From: Thermoproteota archaeon
Lineage (GTDB): Archaea; Thermoproteota; Thermoprotei; Gearchaeales; Gearchaeaceae
Reading direction: 5' to 3'
Assembly (NCBI GenBank): GCA_021324265.1
Contig: JAJPJK010000009.1
Coordinates: 134,164 to 198,163 of the forward strand
Length of the DNA stretch: 64,000 bases
The notes below the pieces were generated by a model. The model had not been told where the DNA came from, searched no databases, and worked only from the letters and a program-made list of their open reading frames with translations. The position numbers and the translations under genes are program-made. Below are positions 41,002-44,999 of this stretch, piece after piece (the stretch's first letter is position 1; each line of letters begins with the position of its first letter).

Positions 41002-42412
41002 TTCTTTAAGACCGATCTTAAGATATCTGCCTGAAATACCCAAAGCTAGGAGGCCTGTAAGCTTTAGAGAAAAGGCTGCATGGACCATTGTTGTATTGAC
41101 GATCTATATCGTATTCACACAAATCCCTCTATACCCTCTTTCAAGCGTTTCTCAATCTGTTCAAACACCTGCGCTTTTCTCCATAATTTTTGCAACACGA
41201 TTTGGCACGCTTGCACAACTTGGTGTAGGGCCTATAGTAACTGCTGGGCTAATTATGCAATTGCTTGTAGGTTCGAAGATAATTAACCTAGATTTAACAG
41301 ATAAAAGTCAAAGAGCGCTCTTTACAGGCACACAAAAATTTCTAGCAATAATATTTACCATTCTAGAAGCAAGCGTTTTTGTTTCAAGCGGCCTACTTCC
41401 TGCAGGAAGTTTGGGTAATGCGATCTTGATAGTACTCCAGCTTCTAGGTGTAGGTATACTCATAATACTTTTTGATGAAATACTCCAAAAGGGCTGGGGC
41501 TTCGGTAGCGCAGTAAGTCTTTTCATATTGGCTGGTATAACATTGCAAATCTCCGTAGAGCTTTTCAGCCCAGCCTTCGCCAATGGTAGCTATGCAGGCA
41601 TACTTCCCGAGGCTATTTATGTCTTAAGCGGAGGCGGGAGCATGAGCGATTTCCTTTTTGGAAATCCCAATTTGGCAAGATCTTCTTCACTCATTGGTTT
41701 AATAGCTATGATAATAACGTTAATAGTTGTAGTTTATTTACAACAGGTAAAGATTGAAATACCAGTTACCTATCCTAAATATGGCGGAGTAAGAGCAAAG
41801 ATACCCCTTCAACTTATCTACGTCTCGAACGTACCTGTGATACTTGCTGGAGCATTAGCTGCAAATCTTCAATTCTTTTCCCAAATAGCTTGGAATAACT
41901 ACAACAGAGCAAACAGCGATCCATTATGGAATGCAATAGCTCAATTCAATGTGATTAACAATCAAGCAGTACCTAGCGGCGGTTTAATTTACTATCTCAC
42001 AGCTCCTCGAGGGCTAAATGCTGCAATACATGATCCCTTGCATGCGCTGATATACATCATAATTTTCTGCTTGCTGTGTGTTTTATTTGCTCTTGCATGG
42101 GTTGAAACCTCTGGCATGAGTGCTGAAGAGCAGGCGAAGAGGTTGGTTAGATCAGGTATTCAAGTCCCTGGTTTTAGAAATAGCGAAGTAGTTCTTGCTA
42201 CACTTTTGAAAAGATATACGAAAACTCTCACATGGTTCAGCGGCCTATTGGTTGGCCTTATTGCTTCAGTTTCTGATACTGTAGGGATAATAGGGACAGG
42301 CATAGGTATACTTTTATCAGTAGGTATAGTATATCAATTCTACATGATATTAGCAAGAGAGAGAATAGAGGAAGAATTCCCATCAATAGCAAGATTATTG
42401 GAGGTGACATAA
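40988..42412 (+). CDS. secY: Preprotein translocase channel SecY
   Basis: The 474-residue multi-spanning membrane protein is the Sec61-alpha equivalent. Ten hydrophobic segments can be counted; the plug and N-region (SFREKAAWTIVVLTIYIVFTQIPLYPL) and the cytoplasmic loop PKYGGVRAKIPLQLIYVSNVPVIL are seen. It forms the protein-conducting channel in the cytoplasmic membrane. Adenylate kinase, which follows secY in many archaea, is missing here. One shared base with the next gene. Confidence 0.98.
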   Translation: MSALNSLRPILRYLPEIPKARRPVSFREKAAWTIVVLTIYIVFTQIPLYPLSSVSQSVQTPALFSIIFATRFGTLAQLGVGPIVTAGLIMQLLVGSKIINLDLTDKSQRALFTGTQKFLAIIFTILEASVFVSSGLLPAGSLGNAILIVLQLLGVGILIILFDEILQKGWGFGSAVSLFILAGITLQISVELFSPAFANGSYAGILPEAIYVLSGGGSMSDFLFGNPNLARSSSLIGLIAMIITLIVVVYLQQVKIEIPVTYPKYGGVRAKIPLQLIYVSNVPVILAGALAANLQFFSQIAWNNYNRANSDPLWNAIAQFNVINNQAVPSGGLIYYLTAPRGLNAAIHDPLHALIYIIIFCLLCVLFALAWVETSGMSAEEQAKRLVRSGIQVPGFRNSEVVLATLLKRYTKTLTWFSGLLVGLIASVSDTVGIIGTGIGILLSVGIVYQFYMILARERIEEEFPSIARLLEVT

Positions 42413-42873
42413 TGGACTTATTTATCGTCCTTTACCATTTGAGCCTTCTCTTAGCGCTTTCCCTCGTTCCAGCTTTACTCTCAGCAGGCCTCAATAGATT
42501 CCTCATTTCAAGATACTTTGGTATTGATAGATATAGGAGGATAATGCGCGAGATAAGGGAATTCGATTCACAATTATTGCAGGCTACGCGAAATAAAGAT
42601 AATGCTAAAATAGAGAAACTTCAAGCTAAAAGGCCTTATATAGATAAGATGCGTTCGCAAACCTTCAAAGTTACGATGATCTCTACAATGGTCATGCTTC
42701 TATTTTATTATCTGTTTTTCATTTACATCTTCACAATGCTTCTTACGGAAGCAATACCTATTTACTTCCCTCTCATCTCAGCTGATTTCTTTATACCGCC
42801 TTATTACTGGTATATCATTTGTCTCTTCTTTGTAAGTTTATTAATAAATAGGAAATTAGGAATATACTACTGA
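42412..42873 (+). CDS. DUF106 membrane protein (YidC/Oxa1/EMC3 superfamily)
   Basis: The 153-residue protein has an N-terminal membrane helix, a cytoplasmic coiled coil (REIREFDSQLLQATRNKDNAKIEKLQAKRPYID) and two more helices, the layout of archaeal DUF106 insertase homologues. It likely helps insert membrane proteins and its position just after secY supports this. Confidence 0.92.
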   Translation: MDLFIVLYHLSLLLALSLVPALLSAGLNRFLISRYFGIDRYRRIMREIREFDSQLLQATRNKDNAKIEKLQAKRPYIDKMRSQTFKVTMISTMVMLLFYYLFFIYIFTMLLTEAIPIYFPLISADFFIPPYYWYIICLFFVSLLINRKLGIYY

Positions 42874-43692: not shown

Positions 43693-43942
43693 ATTGGCTG
43701 TAAAATTGAGGGGAAGAGATGCAGGGAGAAAATGTGTACTAGTGGGTATAATAGATAAGAATTTCGTCCTCGTAACAGGACCAAAAAGGCTTACAGGCGT
43801 AAGGAGGAGGAAAGTAAACATAGATCATTTACTTCTTTTGCCACAACAGATAAAAATTTCAAAGAATGCTTCTGACGATGAGGTGATCAAGGCTCTTGAG
43901 GAAGCGAATCTTCTAGATTTCATGAAAGAAGGTTTTTCATGA
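43667..43942 (+). CDS. rpl14e: 50S ribosomal protein L14e
   Basis: From ATG 43667 it reads PPIISIGRLAVKLRGRDAGRK and has about 91 residues with a KOW-type N-terminal fold (VGIIDKNFVLVTGPKR). An upstream codon at 43643 would add eight residues within cmk. It overlaps the cbf5 ATG by four bases. Confidence 0.95.
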   Translation: MPPIISIGRLAVKLRGRDAGRKCVLVGIIDKNFVLVTGPKRLTGVRRRKVNIDHLLLLPQQIKISKNASDDEVIKALEEANLLDFMKEGFS

Positions 43943-44915
43943 GTCAAAGACAAATACTTTACAAAAAAGATAGCAAGATTAGATTAAAACTCAGTCCATT
44001 TCCTTTTGTGAATAGGAAGATTGAGGAACACATGAACTATTCTTTCGCTTTGCTCGATAAGCCAAGAGGTCCTACGAGTCATGAAGTTGCAGCTTGGATA
44101 AAGAAAGAATTCAATATCCCTGTAACCCACAGCGGGACCCTAGAGATTGACGGGGAGATCCCGCTGTTTCAGGGCTATTACTAATTCTCTTTGGTAGATC
44201 TAGGAAGCTTGGTAGCGCATTAGCTAGATTCGATAAGACTTATGTGTGCGAAATGCAGTTGCATGAAGAAGTTAGCGAGGAAAGGCTAAAGGAGACCATA
44301 AAGCTATTCGTAGGTAAAATATATCAAAAGCCTCCTCTAAGATCTGCGGTGAAAAAAGCTCCGAGAATAAGGAAGATATATTCCATCGATATCCTCGATA
44401 TAAAAGGGAGAAATGTGTTGATGGAAGTTAGATGTGAAGCTGGCACTTACGTGAGGAAGCTTTGCTTTGATATTGGAGAAGTTCTAGGTTCTGGTGCACA
44501 TATGACAGAGCTAAGGAGGACAGCAATCGCTTTTCTGAAAGAAGATTATGAATATCTCGCTACCTTACATGAACTCTTCGGTGCATATAGATATTGGAAG
44601 AAATATGGAGATGAGCGTTATTTGCGATTTTATCTCAGACCAATTGAAGAACTCCTTTTCTTCCTCCCAAAAGTTTTCATAAAGGAAACCGCATTGTTCT
44701 CAGTTACACATGGTTCTTTCGTCGCAGTTCCAGCAATTGTTGGTGTTACATCAGATTTGAAGCCTAAGCAGCTTGTTGGCGTCTATAATCTGAATAACGA
44801 AATCATCGCTCTTGGAAGAGCTGAAATGGATGCAAAGACTGCGATAGAAAGCGAAAAAGGTATTGTCTTAAAGATAGACAAAGTACTTCGTGTTTATGAA
44901 AGAGAGGAACAATAG
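43939..44915 (+). CDS. cbf5: tRNA/rRNA pseudouridine synthase Cbf5 (dyskerin), interrupted by a 14-nt intron
   Basis: Exons 43939-44143 and 44158-44915 join to give 320 residues. Exon 1 ends at PVTHSGTL plus the first base of codon 69; exon 2 continues D-PAVSGLLLILFGRSRKLG, so HSGTLDP containing the catalytic Asp69 is created across the junction. Without splicing exon 1 reaches a TAA at 44182-44184. Exon 2 carries the TruB fold (AGTYVRKLCFDIGEVLG) and a C-terminal PUA domain (HGSFVAVPAIVGVTSDLKPKQLVG). Cbf5 is the catalytic subunit of H/ACA RNPs and also makes U55 in tRNA. The stop lies next to tRNA-Ser(GGA). Confidence 0.92.
44144..44157 (+). other. Predicted 14-nt bulge-helix-bulge intron in cbf5 mRNA
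   Basis: Outer helix ACAGCGGGA (44129-44137) with TCCCGCTGT (44159-44167), nine pairs. Central helix CCCT (44138-44141) with GGGG (44152-44155, one G-U pair). Bulges AGA (44142-44144) and AGA (44156-44158). Cutting each bulge after its second base removes 14 bases and restores the frame and the Asp codon. Cbf5 introns are known in Crenarchaeota, spliced by the tRNA endonuclease; the length here is unusually short. Confidence 0.9.
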
Positions 44916-44999
44916 CGCCGGGAGTGGGATTTGAACCCACGAGGGCAAAAGCCCACAGGCTCTCCAGGCCTGCGCCTTACCTGGCTAGGCTATCCCGGC
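44916..44999 (-). tRNA. tRNA-Ser(GGA)
   Basis: Minus-strand serine tRNA with acceptor GCCGGGA/TCCCGGC, anticodon loop CTGGAGA (anticodon GGA), long variable arm and discriminator G. No intron. It lies tail-to-tail with cbf5, whose stop codon ends one base before it. Confidence 0.95.

Follow-up and report, generated by a model that had tools for sequence, protein, structure and literature searches.

The cbf5 gene of this archaeal genome is interrupted by 14 nt that divide the codon of the catalytic Asp. The 14 bases are very probably a genuine archaeal splicing-endonuclease intron, a minimal form of the known cbf5 pre-mRNA intron, which would be spliced by (alpha-beta)2 EndA and RtcB, with a long outer helix apparently compensating for the loss of the inner one.

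Reading frames and predicted spliced product

The window is the whole 64,000-nt stretch of DNA analysed. Within it cbf5 occupies 43939-44915 (+ strand) and is interrupted at 44144-44157. Without splicing, frame 1 runs from ATG 43939 to TAA 44182-44184 and gives 81 aa; the remainder of Cbf5 lies in a different frame and runs to 44915. The earlier note had reported this split in the direct reading, with the first frame stopping at 44184, and its coordinates are correct.

43939..44143, + strand: cbf5 exon 1, from the ORF and the spliced-protein match; last base is the G of the Asp codon
44144..44157, + strand: 14-nt intron AGATTGACGGGGAG; Cbf5 frame restored when it is deleted, relatives interrupted at the same site
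44158..44915, + strand: cbf5 exon 2, from the ORF and the spliced-protein match; first bases are the AT of the Asp codon
44182..44184, + strand: premature TAA closing the unspliced frame, from the reading frames

Deletion of 44144-44157 yields HSGTL-D-PAVSG and a single 320-aa Cbf5 with DKCLD, TruB_N, TruB_C_2 and PUA domains. Against the NCBIfam Cbf5 model (cut-off 242 bits) the spliced protein scores 343 bits and the exon-1 product alone 52 bits. The exon-2 ORF by itself lacks the catalytic motif. The only TruB_N match in the genome is cbf5 itself; therefore no spare intron-less cbf5 is present.

The gene is accompanied by L34e, cytidylate kinase and a KOW-domain gene, then by tRNA-Ser, S13, an S4-domain gene and S11. 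In the region 44913-44999 its stop codon directly adjoins the 3' end of the opposite-strand tRNA-Ser gene or shares one base with it. A weak match to an EMC3/TMCO1-like membrane protein lies at 42412-42873 of the window, beside ribosomal genes.

Intron site and RNA fold

The intron splits the catalytic Asp codon between bases 1 and 2 (44143|44144-44157|44158). This is the position of the published crenarchaeal cbf5 introns, which interrupt the Asp codon behind letter 1; there a 4-bp helix stands between three-base bulges, and each bulge is cut between its second and third base (PMC2738675). Both borders here read AG|A around a CCCU/GGGG helix and fit that rule (PMC2738675). The RNAfold minimum free energy (MFE) of 44129-44167 is -19.5 kcal/mol (z = -4.1, 0/200 shuffles). 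The MFE fold consists of a 9-bp outer helix, a 3-nt AGA bulge, a 4-bp central helix and a 10-nt terminal loop, with the elements as follows.

44129..44137, + strand: outer helix, 5' strand (His-Ser-Gly codons), from the MFE fold; pairs with 44159-44167
44159..44167, + strand: outer helix, 3' strand (Pro-Ala-Val codons), from the MFE fold and the synonymous-codon test
44138..44141, + strand: central 4-bp helix, 5' strand CCCU, from the MFE fold; C-G to U-A change in same-family relatives
44152..44155, + strand: central 4-bp helix, 3' strand GGGG, from the MFE fold and the compensatory change
44142..44144, + strand: 5' splice site AGA, predicted cut after 44143, from the MFE fold and the PMC2738675 rule
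44156..44158, + strand: 3' AGA bulge, predicted cut after 44157, from the MFE fold and the PMC2738675 rule

The earlier note had described a 9-bp outer helix, a 4-bp central helix and two AGA bulges. Both helices and the 3' bulge are present as described; the 5' AGA is not a separate bulge but belongs to the 10-nt terminal loop (44142-44151), where one isolated G-C pair is possible. The motif is therefore a relaxed hBH, or bulge-helix-loop (BHL), and not a full hBHBh'. Its inner helix is at most 1 bp with a 10-nt loop, which falls outside the canonical bulge-helix-bulge form (BHB, hBHBh'); its outer helix, 3-nt bulge, 4-bp helix and loop correspond to the relaxed form, which was defined for archaeal pre-tRNAs (PMC6379350, PMC12397907).

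Statistical rarity of the geometry was considered and rejected: with an outer helix of at least 9 bp, the + strand of the 64 kb holds 9 matches, against about 5 in mononucleotide shuffles. The non-chance features of the intron, as read from sequence, are that it falls exactly on the Asp codon and that relatives have conserved it.

Predicted splicing machinery

Two PF01974 genes are present in the genome (193-aa and 175-aa frames). The 193-aa frame, the alpha subunit, has the active-site Tyr/His/Lys and a loop, IEKPKT; its best PDB match is 3p1z (Aeropyrum pernix EndA), in which EKPRG aligns with IEKPKT. In the A. pernix enzyme K44 and R46 belong to the crenarchaea-specific loop (PMC12397907), and K44 with a basic residue two positions on is tied to broad EndA specificity (PMC12397907, PMC6379350). 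The 175-aa frame, the beta subunit, lacks both the active-site His and the loop. The pair thus has the composition of an (alpha-beta)2 EndA: a separate alpha with triad and loop lysine, and a beta without His or loop. The short-intron genomes tested in families f19, f20, f29 and f39 likewise encode an alpha with loop lysine and triad, and a second subunit, which in f19 is a weak match. RtcB is encoded in the genome.

Introns are called by ARAGORN in 4 of the 44 tRNA genes (53, 29, 16 and 25 nt), so EndA has other substrates. At one locus (L253, G000:C25:94073-94173) ARAGORN calls an intron-bearing tRNA Ser(GGA), the anticodon of which may be misassigned; an intron-less tRNA-Ser(GGA) is already in the window at 44915-44999.

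Relatives and distribution

When the spliced protein is used as query, cbf5 proves to be broken at this residue in four relatives: the two others of the family and the two others of the order. The same-site introns measure 14 nt (G001) and 13 nt (G002) in the family and 19 nt (G003) and 26 nt (G004) in the order. These relatives, together with the endonuclease genes, support the 14-base intron with the Asp codon rebuilt across the junction that the earlier note had proposed; they are also what its suggested search of related cbf5 genes was to look for. Further families of the class have cbf5 introns of 18-27 nt, and about 100 other archaeal genes carry same-site introns of 13-42 nt.

A pattern search of the class matched 17 of 81 genomes (reversed control 0); one match (G028) is not at cbf5, and the pattern is blind to the three members of f1, the window's family. 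Across the phylum 121 of 397 genomes matched, against about 10 control matches. Eighty of the phylum matches were read at the locus and 79 proved to be cbf5. Introns are present in several Thermoprotei metagenome-assembled genomes, or MAGs (L050, L063, L065, L102), and in a Bathyarchaeota MAG (L118, 33 nt). In f5 the intron is present in some genera and absent in others, including the recorded Thermofilum genome (G038 = L093). The named-genome scan, which may omit records of the window's own genome, returned mostly intron-less cbf5 genes.

A 30-nt intron at the same site is carried by the cbf5 of 'Candidatus Jordarchaeum' (L109, JAHLWW010000067.1), an Asgard lineage; the contig is possibly a MAG contaminant. 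If it is not, this record places the cbf5 intron outside Thermoproteota.

Two further loci are irregular. In the relative with the 13-nt intron (L033, G002:C34 = AQVQ01000034.1, SCGC AAA261-N23) cbf5 stops shortly past the intron, and the missing part of exon 2 is found in opposite orientation at the start of the contig; the arrangement looks like an amplification chimera, the genome bearing an SCGC single-cell code. At L047 (G048, f11) the cbf5 matches are also split near Asp, and no standard intron border was parsed.

The central helix is nearly always formed in the 102 distinct intron regions. At its third pair both sides have changed in three sequences, C-G to U-A twice in the window family and C-G to A-U in L109, and 0/500 shuffles pair as well.

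In the 2009 study the cbf5 intron was reported from two orders only, Desulfurococcales and Sulfolobales, and its origin was placed in their ancestor (PMC2738675). On the Cbf5 tree 12 changes between intron and no intron are needed. The distribution suggests either that the intron arose earlier and was then lost in some lineages or that it was gained repeatedly at a single site; the tree does not separate the two. No literature on cbf5 introns after the 2009 study was found among open-licence papers.

Short introns and the outer helix

Among introns of at least 16 nt, an inner helix of 3-12 bp is the rule, and the outer run is 0-5 bp (mean about 2.5). The 12 genes with introns of 13-14 nt have an inner pairing of at most 1 bp and a mean outer run of 8.25; in the 92 intron-less cbf5 genes the outer run averages 1.17 and never exceeds 5. 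Outer runs of 9-11 bp, formed by H-x-G and P-x-V codons, occur in f1, f19 and f20. The codon pairs differ (AGC/GCU, GCG/CGC and GCC/GGC, respectively), and only 0.5% of synonymous codon sets in f1, 0.5% in f19 and 1.6% in f20 pair as well. Lys after Asp-Pro is found in 0/12 short-intron genes, 62/92 intron-less genes and 77/91 genes with longer introns. For a Lys codon at this position to pair in the helix, Leu or Phe would presumably be needed between His and Gly. Families f29 and f39 have 13-14 nt introns and no long perfect outer helix; the long outer helix is therefore not obligatory and not the sole route.

One clade of f1, f20 and f29 has AU p = 0.49 on the Cbf5 tree (60 rows), which is compatible with one origin of the short form as well as with several. 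Separate shortening is favoured only by how the genomes group: f1 and f2 share an order, and f20 and f29 are not members of the class. It is quite possible, if not yet probable, that the intron shrank to 13-14 nt several times, that coding sequence became the recognition helix, that codon choice and the residues flanking Asp (Lys loss) have been shaped by EndA cutting, and that the intron is far older than the published Desulfurococcales-Sulfolobales origin. The trade-off between intron length and outer helix is apparently new.

Proposed mechanism and alternatives

In the pre-mRNA, the exon codons around the catalytic Asp would form the 9-bp outer helix, and four intron bases would pair with four exon bases as the central helix. 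EndA of the (alpha-beta)2 type would cut both AGA triplets between their second and third bases (44143/44144 and 44157/44158), and RtcB would presumably join the exons. The inner intron helix of longer cbf5 introns would have been lost in the short form, and the longer outer helix drawn from coding sequence appears to compensate for it. Cleavage of a bulge-helix-loop substrate would be permitted by the crenarchaea-specific loop of EndA. Splicing of cbf5 is probably constitutive.

Position, conservation, helices and enzyme genes can be read directly from the DNA. In a draft multi-contig genome, a frameshift in the direct reading could in principle be an indel introduced by sequencing or assembly, or else a disabling mutation in a dead gene. 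This is very improbable: relatives assembled independently have an insert (13-42 nt) at exactly this base and share the CCCU/GGGG helix, and the remaining cbf5 sequence is intact and conserved. Because relatives have an intron at the same site, the 14 nt are not an indel error, and both error and pseudogene were rejected on this ground; the simple indel that the earlier note had set against its own reading is contradicted by the same relatives. Translation might instead bridge the 14 bases by programmed ribosomal frameshifting or by bypassing, with no RNA splicing; a stable hairpin within the reading frame would accord with this, and PMC2738675 notes that other authors have read cbf5 introns as frameshifting. 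This is rejected because the inserts of relatives differ freely in length and in frame: the three length classes modulo 3 hold 43, 37 and 23 of 103 inserts, which RNA removal alone explains well. Spliced cDNA is moreover reported from related species (PMC2738675), and the pairing required by EndA is conserved, so that translational bypass is hardly credible.

Splicing might also serve as a switch through which the amount of active Cbf5 is regulated, the unspliced mRNA giving an inactive 81-aa product. The intron divides the catalytic codon, unspliced translation ends at 44184, and negative regulation by the cbf5 intron has been proposed earlier, as cited in PMC2738675. A switch is nevertheless unlikely. 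No conserved regulatory element is observed beyond the endonuclease motif, the loop varies in sequence and length, and the Rfam match is limited to the neighbouring tRNA; lineages without the cbf5 intron survive, the intron is present in every sampled family relative, and no result bears on regulation. Removal of the 14 bases as an EndA-type intron is the preferred reading, and splicing of cbf5 here is inferred with high confidence.

Significance and comparison with known systems

Archaeal mRNA introns are few, and that of cbf5 is the experimentally verified one in the literature examined. A size of 13-14 nt is a lower size for a cbf5-type mRNA intron, the occurrence of which extends well beyond the two assigned orders. 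The gene also lends itself to testing whether a signal for RNA processing can limit the choice of amino acids beside an enzyme active site. Intron-bearing cbf5 genes will appear frameshifted or as two ORFs in metagenome-assembled genomes, which concerns their annotation.

Introns in cbf5 of Desulfurococcales and Sulfolobales are established (Watanabe 2002, Yoshinari 2006, Yokobori 2009; PMC2738675), as the earlier note had stated for Crenarchaeota. Shared with them are the gene, the Asp-codon position, the cut rule and an (alpha-beta)2 EndA in the genome. The intron described here differs in its size (14 nt, and 13 nt in one relative, where the published range is 16-44 nt), in the absence of an inner helix, in its 9-bp outer helix and in its occurrence outside both orders. 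The earlier view that 14 bases is near the smallest possible size holds for cbf5, in which 13 nt is the smallest found here, but not for tRNA introns, which are published down to 11 nt (PMC2738675). Introns of 13-14 nt in cbf5, below the published minimum of 16, are apparently new, as is the cbf5 intron outside Desulfurococcales and Sulfolobales (including Thermofilum-type, Bathyarchaeota and Jordarchaeum records).

The relaxed hBH/BHL introns of archaeal pre-tRNAs are cut by EndA enzymes that have a loop specific to Crenarchaea or to ARMAN (PMC6379350, PMC12397907). They combine a single bulge with a 4-bp helix and a terminal loop, as does the present motif, which differs in lying in an mRNA and in having an exon helix of protein-coding codons. 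The putative 12-bp introns in genes of an archaeal virus, as cited in PMC2738675, are similar in their tiny size and their location in protein-coding genes; by that account they are in-frame and their splicing is putative, whereas the cbf5 intron described here is frame-breaking and conserved.
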